A DNA stretch of 64,000 nt from the NCBI RefSeq assembly GCF_039555325.1, contig NZ_CP154608.1, positions 806,001 through 870,000 of the forward strand. The letters are read 5' to 3'. Position numbers and translations under genes: made by a program. Below, in pieces: positions 7,334 to 61,843 of this stretch (the first letter of the stretch is position 1; each line of letters starts with the position of its first letter). The notes beneath the pieces are model-generated. The model had not been told where the DNA came from. It did not search any database and was given only the letters and a program-made list of their open reading frames with translations. The DNA comes from Sphingomicrobium sp. XHP0239. Lineage in GTDB: Bacteria > Pseudomonadota > Alphaproteobacteria > Sphingomonadales > Sphingomonadaceae.

Positions 7334-8785
7334 TTGTTCGACAGCCTGAGCGATCGCCTTGGCAACGTTTTCGACAAGATCCGCGGCCGCGGAGCCTTGA
7401 CCGAAGGCGACGTACGCGATGCGATGCGTGAAGTGCGCGTCGCCCTGCTCGAGGCGGACGTCGCGCTGCCGGTGGCGCGCAAGTTCGTCGAACAGGTGAC
7501 CGAACGCGCGGTTGGCGAGGAGGTCGTCAAATCGGTCACCCCCGGCCAGATGGTCGTCAAGATCGTCAACGACGCGCTCGTCGAACTGCTCGGCAGTGAG
7601 AATGCCGAACTCGATCTGAAGGTCGCGCCGCCCGCCGTCATCATGGTCGTGGGCCTGCAGGGCTCGGGCAAGACCACGAGCACGGCGAAACTCGCCAAGC
7701 GGCTGAAGGAAAAGGATCGCAAGAAGGTCCTGATGGCCTCGCTCGACGTCGCGCGCCCGGCCGCGCAGGAGCAGCTTGCGGTGCTGGGGCGGCAGGCGGA
7801 CGTCGATACGCTCCCCATCGTACCGGGTCAGCAGCCCACCGAGATCGCCAAGCGCGCGATCCAGGCGGGCAAGCTCCAGGGCTATGACGTCCTCATGCTC
7901 GATACGGCGGGTCGCCTCCACGTCGACAATGCGCTGATGGACGAGATGAAGGCGGTCGGCGCGGCGGCCAATCCCGCCGAAACGCTGCTCGTCGTCGACA
8001 GTCTGACCGGGCAGGACGCGGTCAACGTCGCCAAGGGCTTCGGCGAGGAAATCGAGCTTACCGGTGTGATCCTCACCCGCATGGACGGCGATGCGCGCGG
8101 CGGTGCGGCGCTGTCGATGCGCGAAGTCACCGGAAAGCCGATCAAGTTCGCCGGGACGGGCGAGGGGCTCGATGCACTCGAACCCTTCCACCCCGACCGT
8201 GTCGCGGGCCGCATCCTCGGCATGGGCGACGTCGTCAGCCTCGTCGAAAGGGCCGCCGAGACGGTCAAGGCCGAAGATGCCGAGCGGCTCGCCAAGAAGA
8301 TGGAGAAGGGCAAGTTCGATCTCGACGATCTTGCGCTACAGCTTCAGCAGATGAAGCGCATGGGCGGAATCGGCGCGCTCGCCAAGATGATGCCCGGAAT
8401 GAAGGGCATGAAGCAGGCGGGCGAGGTCGACGACAAGGCGCTGACGCGCCTCGAAGCGATGATGAGCTCGATGACCGCCGAGGAACGCGCGCGTCCCAAG
8501 ATCATCAACGCGAAGCGCAAGAAGCGCATCGCCAAGGGCTCGGGCTCGACGGTCCAGGAATTGAACAAGCTTCTCAAGATGCACCAGCAGATGGAAGGCA
8601 TGATGAAGAAGCTGAAGAAGATGGGCGGGTTCGGGAAGCTTGCCTCGATGTTCGGCGGCGGTCCCGATCTGGGCGGGGACGACGGCAAGATGCCGCCACT
8701 TCCGCCCGGCGGCCTGCCGGGTCTCGGCGGACCGGGCATGCCCAACAACCTGCCGCCAGGTTTCGACAAGTTTTCAAAGAAATAA
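7334..8785 (+). CDS. ffh: Signal recognition particle protein Ffh
   Basis: A 483-residue SRP54 GTPase that binds signal sequences and 4.5S RNA. The N domain starts [17 protein letters not shown]; the G domain has [24 protein letters not shown] and [10 protein letters not shown]. The methionine-rich M domain (from about residue 300) contains [20 protein letters not shown] and the RNA-binding segment [14 protein letters not shown]. The C-terminal tail is Gly/Pro-rich. The start is a TTG at 7334 with AGGAG at 7320-7324; no ATG fits. No SRP RNA gene was seen in the window. It is followed after 28 bases by rpsP, a common arrangement. Confidence 0.97.
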
Positions 8786-8813
8786 CGACACACTCTTTAG
8801 AAGGAATATCATC

Positions 8814-9314
8814 ATGGCAGTTGCAATTCGTCTCGCCCGCGGTGGCGCCAAGAAGCGTCCCTATTACCGCATCGTCGTGGCCGACAGCCGCAAGTCGCGC
8901 GACGGGCGCTTCATCGAGCGCGTCGGCAGCTACAACCCGCTGCTCGCCAAGGACGACCCCGAGCGCGTGAAGCTCGACAAGGAGCGGATCGAGCATTGGA
9001 TGTCGGTCGGCGCCAAGCCCACCGATCGCGTGATGCGCTTCCTCGACGCCGAAGGCATCGCGAAGCGCGAAGAGCGCAACAATCCGAAGAAGGCGGAGCC
9101 GGGACAGAAGGCCAAGGATCGCGCCGAAGAGCGTGCCGAGAAGGAACAGGCTGCCAAGGACGCCGCGGAAGAGGCGAAGAACGCCGAAGCCGAAGCGCCT
9201 GCCGATGACTCGGCTACCGAAGAAGCGACCGCCGAGGAAACGCCGGCCGCCGAGGACAAGGGCGAGACCGAAGGCGACGCCAAGGCCTCAGAAGACGGCG
9301 ACAAGGCCGAGTAA
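8814..9314 (+). CDS. rpsP: 30S ribosomal protein S16 with long acidic tail
   Basis: A 166-residue S16. The conserved body (residues 1 to about 85: [49 protein letters not shown]) is followed by about 80 residues of Lys/Glu/Ala-rich low-complexity sequence, roughly doubling the usual 80-90 residue length. Such extensions are known in alphaproteobacterial S16 but this one is long. The start at 8814 is preceded by AGAAGGA. It is the first gene of the rpsP-rimM-trmD-rplS group. Confidence 0.96.
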
Positions 9315-9320
9315 TCCGGC

Positions 9321-9821
9321 ATGGCGGGCGCGGACGACAAACGCATCGCGCTCGCCGCCATTGCCGGTGCCCATGGCGTGCGGGGAGAGGTTCGCCTCAA
9401 ACTGTTCGCCGACGGCATCGATACGCTGAAAGCACAGAAGGCGCTGTTCGTCGGTGGCGACGAGCGGCGCCTTTCGTCCGTCCGGGCCAATGCCAAGGGC
9501 GGCATCGCACGGTTCGAAGGCATCGACAGTCGGGAGGCCGCGGAGGCCCTTCGCGGAAGCCTCGTCGAAATCGACCGCGAAGCGCTGCCTGCATTGGACG
9601 ACGACGAATATTATCTCGGCGATCTCATGGACCTGCCGGTCGTGGACGAGACGGGATCTTCCGTGGGCACCATCGTGGCGGTCGAGAATTACGGTGCGAG
9701 TGACGTCATCGAGATCGAGCGCCCGGATGGCAAGCGGTTCATGATCCCGCTGATCGAGGCGGCGGTGCCCGAATGGAATAGCGAGAGGCTCGTCGCCAAC
9801 AGCGCCTATTGCGAGGGCTGA
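9321..9821 (+). CDS. rimM: Ribosome maturation factor RimM
   Basis: A 166-residue 16S rRNA processing factor. The N-terminal domain has [18 protein letters not shown] and the C-terminal PRC-barrel has [16 protein letters not shown] and [14 protein letters not shown]. It helps assemble the 30S head near S19 and S13. It starts 6 bases after rpsP. Its end overlaps by 16 bases the end of the convergent oxidoreductase gene, and trmD, its normal next neighbour, is displaced by 1.85 kb. Confidence 0.95.
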
Positions 9822-10756
9822 ACCGTCGGTTCGCGCCGGATCGGTCGTTTCTTCGCCAGATCGTTGCGGATCGTCGTTGACGCGACCCCGCCCTGGCCCA
9901 TCGCGTTGGAAATCTGGTCGAGCCCGATCACGACATCTCCCGCCGCATAGAGGCCGTCGATATTGGTGCGCATATGGTCATCGACCTCGATGCATCGTTC
10001 GCCGCAAAGGCTTGCCCCGACCATTTCGGCCAGTTGCACATGCGTGTCCGATCCCAGCGCGGGATAGATGCTGTCGAAGGCGAACGTCCGCCCGTCCTCG
10101 ACTTCGACCATGATCTCGCCCTCGCCGGGACGGATGTTCGCGACGGGACCGTCGATCCGCTCGATCCCCGCTTCCTCCAGGTCCGTGCGGCAGGGCGGGG
10201 TCAGATCCTGCGCCCCGTCGGGCGCGATCAGCGTGATGCTCGCGGTAAAGCCGCGCAGAAACTGCGCCTCGGCAGCGGCATGGTCGCCCGTGCCGATGAC
10301 GCCGACACGCTTGTCGGTGACTTCGTAACCGTCGCACACAGGACAGTAGCGGATCAGTCCTTCGGCCATCGCGGCGTCATGCGTTTCCACATCGATCATC
10401 GGCGGCCGCCGGTTGGACACGCCGGTCGCCAGTAGGACGGTGCGCGCTTCGACCGGCCCCGAACCCCAGTCGGCCACGAACAATCCGTCCTCGCCGCGGT
10501 CGAGGCGGGTCACGCGCCCGTCCTTGATCTCGGCGTGATAGCGAAGCGCCTGTTCCTTCATGCGATCGAGCAGTTCCTCGCCGTTGATCCCCTCGGGGAA
10601 GCCGGCATGGTTGTGGCTCGTCGGGATCCATTTGGCACGGCTGTTGCCTCCGTCGACCACCCAGATGTCGAGATGATAGCGTGCCAGATAGATGGCCGCG
10701 GTCAGCCCTGCCGGGCCGGCACCGATGACGAGGCAATCGAGGGGTGTGTCGCGCAT
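9806..10756 (-). CDS. NAD(P)/FAD-dependent oxidoreductase, thioredoxin-reductase-like
   Basis: A 316-residue flavoprotein with the thioredoxin reductase layout. FAD-binding [16 protein letters not shown] is at the start, a redox-active CPVC pair lies in [11 protein letters not shown] near residue 145, the NADP-binding site is [12 protein letters not shown], and the C-terminal FAD motif is GLYAAGDVV. The CPVC instead of the usual CATC places it in the broader family rather than in bona fide TrxB. The electron acceptor is unknown. It is inserted in reverse orientation inside the rpsP-rimM/trmD-rplS cluster, with its stop inside the last codons of rimM. Confidence 0.85.
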
Positions 10757-47557: not shown

Positions 47558-48205
47558 ATGTGGAACAGTAAGATCGGTATATTATCTCCGATAATTCTTT
47601 CGTTAGGATTCTCGAACGCGGAACCAGTTGCGTGGGAGAAAGAGCGTTTCGCGTTTCTGCCTCGTATTTTTATCGATGTTGGTGAGGGATTTGAATATAA
47701 TAATGCTTATCCCCAGTTTTCAGGCCGTATTTCTAATTGTAGCCGAGATGGCGTGAATTGCCTGCAAGGCCGTACGTTCAATATTGAGTGGTCGGAAGTT
47801 TGCGGTCCGTATCAGGTCGGTCAGAGTTGGAAACAAGTACAGAATACTGACCAGGAGACGACGTTCACTGTCGCCGCCGAATTTATTATAAACGGCCCAT
47901 ATTTCAAGTCGGTTGATCATGTCGTTACGTCGTCCGCTACCAAGAATATTGCTTATATCTTTTCGACTAGCCGTGGCCTCGTCGGGGTGATTCAGGACTC
48001 GAGTCGACGTGATACCCTTGTCGACGATTTGGCATCTCCTAGCCTTATCGATGAAATCGCTTCGGGAAAATCGACAACCGGAGGGGGCTATATCGTCTCT
48101 CGGCTGGTGGGCTACGGAAAACTTGGGAACTGCGTGCCGATGAGACCGCGCCTCGAAGAGGGGTTCAAAATTTACGAGCCAGTTGATCTGGAGACATCCG
48201 ATTAA
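47558..48205 (+). CDS. AT-rich orphan, predicted secreted protein
   Basis: A 215-residue protein with a short N-terminal signal (MWNSKIGILSPIILSLGFSNA) and four cysteines (SNCSRDGVNCLQ, WSEVCGPY, GNCVPM) that could pair outside the cytoplasm. The rest is beta-rich in appearance, with no motif I recognise. Its composition is clearly more AT-rich than any neighbour and its codons are unlike the host's, which points to horizontal acquisition. It sits between putA and tRNA-Asn, next to a broken gene end. It has only a weak GAGAG site upstream of the ATG. The gene could be decaying or recently gained; function unknown. Confidence 0.65.
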   Translation: MWNSKIGILSPIILSLGFSNAEPVAWEKERFAFLPRIFIDVGEGFEYNNAYPQFSGRISNCSRDGVNCLQGRTFNIEWSEVCGPYQVGQSWKQVQNTDQETTFTVAAEFIINGPYFKSVDHVVTSSATKNIAYIFSTSRGLVGVIQDSSRRDTLVDDLASPSLIDEIASGKSTTGGGYIVSRLVGYGKLGNCVPMRPRLEEGFKIYEPVDLETSD

Positions 48206-57410: not shown

Positions 57411-57923
57411 ATGATGCAGCTCGTCCCCCACCGCGACCATCCGACCCCCCAAGTCGAGCGGCTGACGGTGGAGGCGCGCGAGGAAGACGGCATCCTCTCG
57501 CTGCGCTATCGATTGCGGGGCGATCTCGACGCCCTGATGCTTCCGGCCTTCGCGAGCCTGCGGCGCGAGGACCGGCTATGGCGCTCGACCTGCTTCGAGA
57601 TTTTCCTGCGTCACAATGCCACCGCCTATCGCGAGTATAATTTCGCGCCCGACGGGCGTTGGTCGGCCTATCGTTTCGCGAATTATCGGCATGCGCGCTC
57701 CAACCTCGCCAACCAAGTCAGGATCGCCACCGAACGCGACGGCGACGACTATGTCATGCGGGCGCATCTTGTCGGTCAGCCGATCATCGGCCACCGCGTC
57801 GGGCTTTCCGCCATCATCGAGGCGACCGACGGGACCAAGGGATATTTCGCCCTTGCCCATCCGGCAGGCGCAGCCGATTTCCATCACGACGACTGTTTCG
57901 CCATTCTGGGAGAAGAGATTTGA
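57411..57923 (+). CDS. DOMON-like domain protein
   Basis: About 170 residues, beta-rich, with DRLWRSTCFEIFLRHNATAY and EYNFAPDGRWSAYRFANYR, the pattern of the DOMON-like proteins found beside NamZ-type genes in sphingomonads. Such domains bind haem or sugars in other proteins; no function is known here. Several start codons are possible (57339, 57399, 57411, 57414); 57411 leaves the divergent promoter of tyrS free. Its stop overlaps the TTG start of the NamZ-type gene by four bases (TTGA), implying co-translation. Confidence 0.75.
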   Translation: MMQLVPHRDHPTPQVERLTVEAREEDGILSLRYRLRGDLDALMLPAFASLRREDRLWRSTCFEIFLRHNATAYREYNFAPDGRWSAYRFANYRHARSNLANQVRIATERDGDDYVMRAHLVGQPIIGHRVGLSAIIEATDGTKGYFALAHPAGAADFHHDDCFAILGEEI

Positions 57924-59122
57924 AGTTCGGCATCGACCGTCTGCTCGAGGACGAGACCCTTCGCCGCGAATTGAAGGGCCGCAAGGTCGCCCTGTGCGGT
58001 CATCCCGCTTCGGTCAGCGAGCGCCTCATCCATTCGATGGACGCGTTGGCGGGCCTCGACGACATCGATCTCGCCGCCGCTTTCGGTCCCCAGCACGGGA
58101 TGAAGGGCGACAAGCAGTACAATATGGTCGAAAGCGAGAGCTACATCGACCCGGTCCACGGGGTCCCCGTCCATTCGCTCTACGGCGAGGTGCGACGTCC
58201 GACCGACGCCATGATGGAAGGCTGGGACGTCGTCCTCGTCGACCTGCAGGATGTCGGCTGCCGTATCTATACCTTCCTCACGACCCTGCTCTACCTGCTC
58301 GAAGCGGGCGCGACGCATGGCAAGGCCGTATGGGTTCTCGACCGCCCCAATCCCGCGGGCCGTCCGATCGAGGGACCCAAGCTACGCTCGGGCTACGAAA
58401 GTTTCGTCGGAGCAGGTCCGATCCCGATGCGGCACGGCATGACATTGGGAGAGATGGGGCATTGGTTCGTCAGGCATTTCGATCTCGACGTCGATTATCG
58501 CGTCGTCGAAATGCAGGCGTACGAGCCCGACGGCCCCGGCCATGGATGGCCCGGGGATCGCGTCTGGATCAATCCGTCGCCCAATGCGCCAAGCGTGAAC
58601 ATGGCGCGGGCCTATGCGGGCACGGTGATGGTGGAGGGCACCCACCTGACCGAGGGCAGGGGGACGACCCGCCCGCTCGAGATTTTCGGCGCGCCCGACA
58701 TCAATGCGCGAACCGTCATCGCCGAGATGCAGCGTCTGGCGCCGCACTGGCTGACGGGCTGCGCTTTGCGCGAGATCTGGTTCGAGCCGACCTTCTACAA
58801 ACATGCGGGATCGCTGTGCCACGGCGTGCACATCCATGCGGAGGGGCCGGGCTACGACCATGCGGCCTTCAAGGCATGGCGCGTCCAGTCGCTGGCGTTC
58901 AAGGCGATCCGGGCGATCTTCCCCGAATACGATCTCTGGCGCGGCCTCGACTATGAGTATGAATATACCTCGGGTCGCCCCGCCATCGACATCATCAACG
59001 GCGGCCCCGCGCTGCGGGAGTGGGTCGACGATGAGGACGCGACGCCGGATGACCTCGATGCCTTGGCGATCCCCGACGAAAAAGCGTGGGCCGAGGAGCG
59101 CCGACCGTTCCTCCTATATTGA
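57920..59122 (+). CDS. namZ: DUF1343 protein, NamZ-type exo-beta-N-acetylmuramidase
   Basis: A 400-residue protein of the DUF1343 family, whose Bacillus member NamZ removes MurNAc from the non-reducing end of peptidoglycan fragments. Family segments visible are VALCGHPASVSER, FGPQHGMKGDKQYNM (acidic/His active region), VLVDLQDVGCRIYTF, VLDRPNPAGRPIEGP and the C-terminal YEYTSGRPAIDIINGG. There is no signal peptide, so it would act in the cytoplasm or be exported by another route. The start is TTG 57920, coupled to the DOMON gene. It would feed AmgK and MurU at 32.6-34.4 kb. Confidence 0.82.
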   Translation: MKFGIDRLLEDETLRRELKGRKVALCGHPASVSERLIHSMDALAGLDDIDLAAAFGPQHGMKGDKQYNMVESESYIDPVHGVPVHSLYGEVRRPTDAMMEGWDVVLVDLQDVGCRIYTFLTTLLYLLEAGATHGKAVWVLDRPNPAGRPIEGPKLRSGYESFVGAGPIPMRHGMTLGEMGHWFVRHFDLDVDYRVVEMQAYEPDGPGHGWPGDRVWINPSPNAPSVNMARAYAGTVMVEGTHLTEGRGTTRPLEIFGAPDINARTVIAEMQRLAPHWLTGCALREIWFEPTFYKHAGSLCHGVHIHAEGPGYDHAAFKAWRVQSLAFKAIRAIFPEYDLWRGLDYEYEYTSGRPAIDIINGGPALREWVDDEDATPDDLDALAIPDEKAWAEERRPFLLY

Positions 59123-59192: not shown

Positions 59193-59942
59193 ATGCCCGA
59201 CTATACCGACCTCTTCGACCAGCGAGGATCGAGTTACGATCGCGCCATGCAGGCGTTTCCCGCTGCGCGGGCAGAAGAGTTTCGCCAACTGCTCGCACCC
59301 CTCGTTCCCCGCTCTGCGATGATCATCGGCGATGTGCCCGCCGGGGGCGGCTATCTTCGCGCCTACATTGCGGAAGGATGCGAATGGGTACGGCACGAAC
59401 CCTGTGCCGATTTCACCACCCATGCGGGCCAGGATCAAACCGAGCGAAACGGGGTCGCTCTCTATCCCTTCCCCTGGAAGGACGAGAGCATCGACGCTGT
59501 CGTCAGTCTGGCGGGGATCCACCATCTCGAGGACAAGCGTCGCTTCTTCGCCGAGGCCCACCGCGTCACCCGTCCGCAGGGCGATTTCGTCGTGTCCGAC
59601 GTCGCGCGCGATCATCCGGTTGCCGCGTTTCTCGACGAATTCGTCGGCGCATACAATTCGACCGGACACGAGGGCCTCTATCTCGACGAGGGGACCGGGG
59701 AGGAGCTTCGCTCTGCCGGCTGGTCGATCGTCGATGACCGCGCCAACGACTATCACTGGGTATTCCCCGATCGATCCGCCATGATCGCCTTCGTCCGCCG
59801 TCTCTTCGACATCGGTACGATCGAGGACGGCGAGATCGGTGCGGCAATCGACGATCGACTGGGCGTCGATGATCTTCGGTCCGGGCAAGTCGGGATGCGC
59901 TGGGGCCTGCGGACCATCCATGCGCGTCGGATTGCCAAGTGA
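59193..59942 (+). CDS. SAM-dependent methyltransferase paired with an ATP-grasp enzyme
   Basis: A 249-residue class I methyltransferase. The SAM loop reads IIGDVPAGGGYLRAYI near residue 45 in place of the usual VLDVGCGTG, and motif DAVVSLAGIHHLEDKRRFF with RVTRPQGDFVVSDV completes the fold. The substrate is unknown. Its stop overlaps the GTG start of the ATP-grasp gene by four bases, so both are made from one transcript, and the pair probably acts on the same product. No signal peptide. Confidence 0.82.
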   Translation: MPDYTDLFDQRGSSYDRAMQAFPAARAEEFRQLLAPLVPRSAMIIGDVPAGGGYLRAYIAEGCEWVRHEPCADFTTHAGQDQTERNGVALYPFPWKDESIDAVVSLAGIHHLEDKRRFFAEAHRVTRPQGDFVVSDVARDHPVAAFLDEFVGAYNSTGHEGLYLDEGTGEELRSAGWSIVDDRANDYHWVFPDRSAMIAFVRRLFDIGTIEDGEIGAAIDDRLGVDDLRSGQVGMRWGLRTIHARRIAK

Positions 59943-61843
59943 AAGTCCGCGTGATCGGGTCGCCGTTGCGGATCGAAGGGTTCGCCTTCGGCCTGCGGTG
60001 CGCCTCGGTACGTATCTCTCTATCCGCCGAGACCATCGATCCAAGGCGATGCCGGCGGATCGGGAAGGAACTGAACGAACTGCTTGGCGAGCGTCAGGCT
60101 ACTCGATCGGTCGATCTGCCCCCTGCGCCGTCCGACGCCGGGGCACCGGCATTCGGTCGCTGGTTCGCAAAAACCATCGATTTCCTGCTCGCCTGTGCCG
60201 ATCTGGCATTCACCGACCCTTGCCGCGTCGTCTCGGGCGGCGAGCGATTGTCGGTCTTCATTCCCTCGTTCCGCCGAGGCTCTGGCGCGGTTCGAGCATT
60301 GGTGGAAATCCTCGTCGCACGCCTGAACGCCGACGCGCTCGATCCGACGATGCACGAGCGGCTGGAGAAAGTGCTCGCCGCCCTGCGCGATACGCAGCCT
60401 GCCACCACCAATGGGCCACGCTTCGCCCGCGCTGCATTCGATCTCGGAATCCCCTTTCAGGAGTTGGTCGGACCGACCGCGCAGTTCGGCATCGGACGCC
60501 ATGCCGTCGAACTGAGCGGTACGTTTTCACAGGTCACACCCCGCAATGCCACCGCGCATGCCAAGTTGAAGCATTATGCCTCGACGCTTCTTGCGCGGGC
60601 GCTCCTGCCGGCACCTGCCTTCGCCCTCTGCAGCAGTGCCGACGAAGCAGAGCGCAATGCCGAAGCGATCGGGTATCCGGTCGTCGTCAAGCCGGCCGAC
60701 CGTGACGGCGGCAAGGGGGTCGAAGCCGGCTTGCGCGACGCCTCGGAGGTTCGCGACGCCTTCGCAGCTGCGGCTGAGGTCAGCCGCACCGTGATGGTCG
60801 AGAAGCATGTCGAAGGCCGCGACTATCGCCTGACCGTATTCCGCGGCGAGACCATCTGGGCCGTGGAACGGCGGCCCGCCGGTGTAATGGGGAACGGACA
60901 GTCGAGCGTTCTGGAACTCGTCGCCGCCCTGAATGCGGAGCCGGGCCGGGGCGACGATACCCATTCGCGGCTGAAGCGGATTTCCCTCGGGGAACGCGAA
61001 GGATCCCTCCTCGCCGTACAGGATCTGTCGCCCGATTCCATTCCCGAGGATGGCCGCTTCGTCCGCCTGGCCCGCAAGTCCAACGTGACCGCAGGTGGGA
61101 CGCCTATTGCGGTGACGGAGGACATGCACCCGGACAATGCCGCGCTCGCCGCGCGCGCCGCCGAAGTGCTTCACCTCGACATCGCGGGCGTCGACCTGAT
61201 CCTGCCGGATATCTCCCGGTCGTGGCGCGAGACGGGCGGGGCGATCTGCGAAGTCAACGCGAACCCCGAACTGGGGGGTACGACATCGCTGCACCTCTAC
61301 CCGTGGCTACTCCAAAGACTGGTGCCGCGCGGCGGACACGTGCCGACCATCGCCCTCCTCGACGGACCGTCGACGGGGAAAGCTTCACTCGATCTGGCGG
61401 ATCGATTGAACAGCGAAGCCCACCCATGCGGCTTGCATTGTGCCGACGGTGTGCGCGTGGGGACGGAATGGGTCGAACGGGGCGCGCTGCCGACGCTCGT
61501 CGCTGGGCAGTGCCTGACCTTCGATCAACGCGTCGCCTCGCTCGTTCTCGGTGCGCTCGATCTAACCGTGACGATGACCGGCCTTCCGGTCCCGCAGGTC
61601 GATCTGCTCGTACTGACGGGCGAACGTCCCACCGGAGAGGGCGGCGCAGCCCTTTCGGATGGCCAGCTGCTGCTGTTGCTTGCAACCATTCGGCCGCATT
61701 GCGGCGACATCCGGTTGCTGGACGCGGGCGACTGCGATCCGGGAGTCCGCCGCGTCCTCGAGCGAATGCGGATCGATGCGTCCCCGATCTCGATGGACGA
61801 GATCGTGACGAAAAAACGAATCGAGATCGAAAGCCGGTCCTAA
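59939..61843 (+). CDS. Cyanophycin-synthetase-like ATP-grasp ligase with degenerate Mur-ligase half
   Basis: A 634-residue protein. Residues about 1-200 are an N-terminal domain; about 205-460 is an ATP-grasp domain closely patterned on cyanophycin synthetase: GYPVVVKPADRDGGKGVEAG, VEKHVEGRDYRLTVFRGE, RKSNVTAGGTPIAVTEDMHP, LDIAGVDLILPDIS and the metal-binding CEVNANPEL. After this, where CphA has a Mur ligase with GTNGKTT, here is TIALLDGPSTGKASLDLADR, then GLHCADGVRVGTEWVERG, and only about 160 residues in all. The P-loop is altered and the rest of the Mur ligase is missing, so only one ligation activity is likely, as in CphA2. The start GTG overlaps the methyltransferase stop. The product is unknown. 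Confidence 0.78.
   Translation: MKVRVIGSPLRIEGFAFGLRCASVRISLSAETIDPRRCRRIGKELNELLGERQATRSVDLPPAPSDAGAPAFGRWFAKTIDFLLACADLAFTDPCRVVSGGERLSVFIPSFRRGSGAVRALVEILVARLNADALDPTMHERLEKVLAALRDTQPATTNGPRFARAAFDLGIPFQELVGPTAQFGIGRHAVELSGTFSQVTPRNATAHAKLKHYASTLLARALLPAPAFALCSSADEAERNAEAIGYPVVVKPADRDGGKGVEAGLRDASEVRDAFAAAAEVSRTVMVEKHVEGRDYRLTVFRGETIWAVERRPAGVMGNGQSSVLELVAALNAEPGRGDDTHSRLKRISLGEREGSLLAVQDLSPDSIPEDGRFVRLARKSNVTAGGTPIAVTEDMHPDNAALAARAAEVLHLDIAGVDLILPDISRSWRETGGAICEVNANPELGGTTSLHLYPWLLQRLVPRGGHVPTIALLDGPSTGKASLDLADRLNSEAHPCGLHCADGVRVGTEWVERGALPTLVAGQCLTFDQRVASLVLGALDLTVTMTGLPVPQVDLLVLTGERPTGEGGAALSDGQLLLLLATIRPHCGDIRLLDAGDCDPGVRRVLERMRIDASPISMDEIVTKKRIEIESRS

Follow-up and report, generated by a model that had tools for sequence, protein, structure and literature searches.

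The window, a 64,000-nucleotide stretch of Sphingomicrobium sp. XHP0239 DNA, carries a methyltransferase gene (MT) that overlaps the gene for a cyanophycin-synthetase-like ATP-grasp ligase (LIG) (Table 1). Our analysis somewhat favours the view that MT and LIG form a two-enzyme module for a methylated small peptide or amide that is not cyanophycin. The link of LIG to a methyltransferase is real and recurrent.

The GTGA overlap described in the initial annotation was recovered, with four bases shared and both genes on the forward strand. The base composition of MT and LIG is that of the window, and LIG is the single match of its family in this genome of 2.42 Mb and one contig. Upstream of MT lies a NamZ-type exo-N-acetylmuramidase gene (57659-59122), and downstream of LIG a convergent gene of 393 aa without a Pfam match at 1e-5. 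Elsewhere in the window, a 215-aa open reading frame (47558-48205) has a GC content of 0.48, compared with 0.65 for the window, and no Pfam match. MT has a Methyltransf_11 domain (44.2 bits, cut-off 21.2) and a class I fold, and on both counts passes as a class I SAM methyltransferase; the motifs of its family, MT-A, are strongly conserved.

Table 1. Positions of the gene pair and its parts within the window
Feature	Positions	Strand	Basis
MT: class I SAM-dependent methyltransferase, 249 aa, family MT-A	59193..59942	+	motifs DVPAGGGYL, HEPC, SLAGxHHLEDK, NSTGHEG
GTGA overlap: MT stop and LIG start	59939..59942	+	sequence
LIG: cyanophycin-synthetase-like ATP-grasp ligase, 634 aa, GTG start	59939..61843	+	
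ATP-grasp (G) domain, LIG residues about 154-464	60398..61330	+	residue mapping on TeCphA1 numbering; range from fold match
Predicted Mur-core remnant without P-loop and without lid, LIG residues about 469-634	61343..61840	+	alignments, motif count, model and fold match

The ligase and its relatives

Cyanophycin synthetase models cover LIG residues 141-558 with scores far under their cut-offs: PRK14016 gave 263 bits against 877 and TIGR02068 gave 243 against 850 (NCBIfam curated), which places LIG outside CphA1 membership. In a residue mapping on the TeCphA1 numbering given in extracts of PMC9427784, the G domain of LIG keeps K211, K251, R297, R311, N382, D419, E438 and N440. LIG has the features of an ATP-grasp amide ligase, namely a pair of lysines that bind ATP, acidic and Asn side chains that coordinate Mg, an arginine for the acyl phosphate, and the fold, as scored at K211, K251, R297, R311, D419, E438 and N440. 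The cyanophycin-type ATP-grasp domain read from the sequence in the initial annotation is intact in these ATP, Mg and acyl-phosphate residues. A206, G257 and G446 of LIG stand where TeCphA1 has Glu215, His267 and Arg458. His267 and Arg458 of the CphA1 G domain are involved in catalysis and Asp binding according to the same extracts (PMC9427784), and all 10 CphA1 rows that extend over these positions have both. Cyanophycin is unlikely as the product of LIG because CphA1 substrate-binding residues are lost. Judging from sequence, LIG is not a normal cyanophycin synthetase; the initial annotation had named this case as one that would speak against a new pathway, and the missed cut-offs and the loss of His267 and Arg458 argue against it.

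In the Mur half, DGPSTGKAS replaces the TGTNGKTT of CphA1, and about 160 residues then lead to the end of LIG. The motif G[TS]xGK[TS][TS] was present in 0 of the 197 family proteins listed, including that of the window, versus 7 of the 7 CphA1 checked. The initial annotation was right that the P-loop is altered and that a working Mur-ligase half is lacking, and the alteration is not peculiar to the window gene: the loss is family-wide, and the residual GK of the window P-loop is not characteristic of the family. The full N-domain zinc motif was likewise found in none of the 197, and it is also absent from 4 of 7 CphA1. The Mur half is dead in the family proteins listed. The proposed structure prediction and alignment to CphA1 and CphA2 gave an AlphaFold model with a pLDDT of 91.6 that matches both along almost all of its length, for CphA2 across the N domain as well. 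The C-terminal part had been described as cut down to about 160 residues; the length stands, and the model and fold match describe it better as a well-folded Mur-core remnant. The suggested CphA2-like layout also holds, with P-loop and lid absent and the G domain intact.

A protein search with LIG gave 363 relatives and a profile search with the LIG family 1021, the best 120 of each being listed. The relatives listed are mostly 600-730 aa long and most are unnamed; the named matches come from Porphyrobacter, Alteraurantiacibacter, Prosthecochloris and Chlorobium and from Chromatiales and Pigmentiphaga MAGs. Some sources name such enzymes cyanophycin synthetase by default, as in several JGI names among the matches listed. 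The family is rare in whole genomes. Within the genus it occurs in 1 of 61, the window genome only, the other matches listed among the 61 being CphA1-length frames or other ATP-grasp enzymes. Counts that include the window genome were 4/396 for the order, 6/385 for the class and 2/398 for the phylum, with E-value limits that differed. Without the window, the family was found in 2/81 genomes in the genus of G339, in 7/10 in the family of G695 (all from genus g122) and in 0/78 genomes of another class. A further class, probably Gammaproteobacteria because the LIG of its member G1228 shares its first 60 residues with P0120, named Chromatiales, had matches in 4/274 genomes, two of the four at CphA1 length only.

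A FastTree tree of the G domain alone, with StCphA2 as its one CphA2, set the LIG family apart from CphA1 and that CphA2 with a support of 0.97 (0.99 with L002). StCphA2 groups with proteins of G078 (0.79), and the window family is held apart at 0.94-0.99. G078, from the same order and 3.4 Mb in size, gives 11 matches to LIG. Most of them are open frames of 580-610 aa arranged in tandem groups, and their residues vary where CphA has its catalytic positions (L043:7431-14649, L044:7866-11370, L045:8566-12267).

Recurrence of the methyltransferase partner

The proposed search of neighbourhoods for the same gene pair found a methyltransferase of family MT-A, or of a second family MT-B, with the ligase in 13 of the 14 genomes that have a member of the LIG family: nine have an adjacent MT-A, one has MT-A 5.5 kb off and three have an adjacent MT-B. 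MT-A immediately precedes LIG, with the same orientation, in the window, in two loci from the genus of G339 (L033, L034) and in six from g122 (L036, L037, L039, L063, L065, L067), so that six of the nine pairs are from one genus and two from another. In the eight pairs besides that of the window, LIG starts, taken as longest-ORF start codons, range from 9 bases past the MT stop to some way before it. The more distant MT-A, in G1434 (L083), is on the opposite strand from LIG. MT-B precedes LIG in L035 and L082 and follows it in L041, and window MT matches the MT-B of L035 only weakly (E 0.002). Directly before LIG, L041 of G614 also has another methyltransferase with a strong Methyltransf_11 score (8092-8985). 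In the 14th genome, G1159, which is 78% complete, all family members are paralogues.

The initial annotation had considered that homologues of the ligase might mostly occur without the methyltransferase. By genome the result favours the pair, and by locus it is mixed (13/26), since both methyltransferase families are missing from one branch of paralogues in a single genus. Neither MT-A nor MT-B was found at its 13 loci, all in g122 and some with short flanks (L038, L040, L042, L062, L066, L069-L076). These loci form one branch (0.999), set apart post hoc after the result was known, next to the g122 ligases that do have a methyltransferase (0.77). When the tree is rooted on three paralogues, ligases with MT-B sit among those with MT-A, and one exchange of the methyltransferase is not separable from two (p-AU 0.265).

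A profile search found MT-A in 10 of 14 genomes with LIG or paralogues versus 3 of 66 without, the 80 genomes being hand-chosen and the profile including window MT and close kin. The four in which it was missed are G1159 and the three genomes with MT-B. In the three genomes with MT-A and no LIG nearby (G038, G066, G077), scores were 222-234 bits; in nine of the ten LIG genomes they were at least 332 bits, and in G1434 221.5. Such MT-A relatives without LIG were seen at L100:8569-10529, L102:4466-10498 and L101:9451-10260; one overlaps a 338-aa gene without a Pfam family, and one lies beside peptidases M1 and M24 and DUF885. When contigs were paired by size alone, 17 of 119 MT homologues shared the exact longest-contig size with one of 119 LIG homologues, both lists being best matches only, and 14 shifted sizes gave 0-2 matches as a control. 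Distance matrices of MT and LIG over 29 pairs, 18 of them contig matches by size alone, correlated with r 0.78 (0.67 without L103, 0.64 in a thinned set of 21), a value never reached in 2000 permutations and one to which shared descent contributes. L103 of G1158 (7670-10220) holds a very divergent methyltransferase-ligase pair in overlapping ORFs, whose products are 27% and 26% identical to those of the window.

Proposed function and alternatives

Our proposal builds on the intact ATP-grasp core, the CphA1-specific residue loss, the dead Mur half and the recurrent methyltransferase link, all of which were computed; from these we infer ligase activity, a small product and the order of the two steps. 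LIG would bind ATP and Mg in its intact ATP-grasp site, turn a carboxylate into an acyl phosphate beside R297 and R311, and join this to an amine to form an amide bond. The Mur half would serve only fold or oligomer, and the substrates would differ from those of cyanophycin synthetase. MT would methylate the substrate or the product of LIG, and the result would be a methylated dipeptide or another small amide with no further extension. Our confidence is slightly lowered because the paralogue branch does not fall cleanly outside the MT-linked ligases. The earlier suggestion of a new peptide pathway is upheld in part, as regards the recurrent methyltransferase partner and the non-cyanophycin ligase; the product may be any of those it suggested, a polymer, a conjugate or a capped dipeptide.

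A CphA2-like layout also fits a polymerase, which counts against the two-enzyme module. LIG might build a polymer from a dipeptide or a modified amino acid, with MT capping or decorating the chain. CphA2, with the same domain layout, polymerises beta-Asp-Arg without a Mur P-loop and lid (extracts of PMC9427784), and its fold matches that of LIG nearly full length, N domain included. However, the tree places its single CphA2 on a branch that does not include LIG, and in this CphA2 positions 267 and 215 are Lys and Asp, against Gly and Ala in LIG. Nor was a cyanophycinase seen among the subset of neighbours of the pair that was run against Pfam. For the window, to which the cyanophycinase check applies, the surroundings of CphA1 in two other genomes of the genus were compared: of the 30 genes called there in 14-kb stretches, presumably with a cyanophycinase among them, CphA1 alone has a match in the window, namely LIG. 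We consider a polymerase rather unlikely. It is less likely still that the pair is a portable piece of specialised metabolism, in which LIG would join a building block, activated or oxidised, to an amino acid and the rest of the window's pathway would be elsewhere or lost. In L083 of G1434, presumably a gammaproteobacterium, a stretch of about 10 kb holds MT-A and LIG together with genes for a type I phosphodiesterase, a glycosyltransferase 2, an AMP-binding ligase, a TauD dioxygenase and a P450. Four genomes of g122, an alphaproteobacterial genus, have a LIG paralogue 24-32 kb from MT-LIG, accompanied by a glycosyltransferase, a phosphodiesterase, a TonB receptor and, in 3 of 4, a P450. L036 carries, in the neighbourhood of MT-LIG, a gene resembling salicylate synthase (83 of 325 bits), a PaaK-like ligase and a further methyltransferase, and several of these g122 genes are homologous to L083 genes. 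In g122 and G1434, the MT-LIG pair may then be only part of a pathway. On the other hand, the P450, glycosyltransferase and phosphodiesterase of g122 adjoin the paralogue and not MT-LIG, and no such marker genes were found in about 20 kb at the window, L033 or L034. The genes of the loci compared here were called with a simple custom script. As the genes that form clusters in its relatives are absent around the window pair, its LIG probably uses common metabolites as substrates.

Two further readings carry little weight. LIG has RimK-like ATP-grasp matches of low score and might add residues to a protein or otherwise modify a macromolecule, MT modifying the same target; this is very improbable, as LIG is much nearer CphA than RimK and no target gene was seen travelling with the pair. 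Decay of a cyanophycin synthetase to an inactive enzyme would agree with the dead Mur half, and is hardly credible, since the partner gene has been retained and distant relatives conserve the ATP-grasp residues.

Two observations on these loci stand by themselves. Paralogues of LIG in g122 occur with a P450, a glycosyltransferase 2, a type I phosphodiesterase and a siderophore-type TonB receptor (L062:5260-13466, L038:8499-16403), and the first three have counterparts in L083, in another class. A HAF-repeat gene upstream of MT is common to L033 and L034 and absent from the window.

Returning to the two-enzyme module, a wider and more tentative proposal is that the pair is a two-gene pathway to a new class of methylated dipeptides or pseudopeptides, with a CphA2-like ligase off cyanophycin chemistry, sporadic in alpha- and gammaproteobacteria, and with its methyltransferase exchanged at least once; we regard this as possible, and short of probable. 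LIG is also listed for green sulfur bacteria. A compatible solute is one possible role because halophilic and marine genera are among the named matches. A group named cyanophycin synthetase has lost cyanophycin determinants and is tied to methylation instead. If confirmed, this would be a very small new amide-forming pathway, would correct the annotation of at least 197 proteins, and would show a ligase keeping its methylation partner though the methyltransferase itself was exchanged.

Comparison with known systems

No description of the MT-LIG pair was seen in our searches of the open-access literature. CphA2 (7ta5, 8fxh) resembles LIG in its N domain, ATP-grasp G domain and Mur core without P-loop and lid, and in the predicted fold. 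LIG differs in its separate branch in a tree with one CphA2, in the residues at 267 and 215 relative to StCphA2, in its pairing with a methyltransferase and in its named matches listed, which are Proteobacteria and green sulfur bacteria. CphA1 (7wac, 7lg5, 7lgm, 7lgn) provides the nearest solved structures by sequence (175.7 bits) and shares the ATP, Mg and acyl-phosphate residues. Unlike CphA1, LIG is without His267, Arg458, an acidic residue at 215, the Mur P-loop, the Mur lid and the N-domain zinc motif, although position 215 is Asp in 3 of 10 CphA1 rows and the zinc motif, as noted, is not universal in CphA1.

N-acetylglutaminylglutamine synthetase (TIGR03103) is a related ATP-grasp ligase that matches LIG over residues 186-427 only, with 116 bits against a cut-off of 569. 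N-acetylglutaminylglutamine amide is a capped dipeptide osmolyte, as stated in extracts of PMC1224877. The cap is acetyl there and methyl here, and no acetyltransferase domain was found in LIG in a Pfam scan. Six presumed TIGR03103 members have EQG at 266-268 and Ala at 458, whereas LIG has DGG and Gly. Carnosine synthase is an ATP-grasp enzyme. Together with carnosine N-methyltransferase, which leads to anserine (PMC3660329), it follows the same logic of a dipeptide ligase and a methyltransferase; these are animal enzymes, and the likeness to MT and LIG is one of logic.
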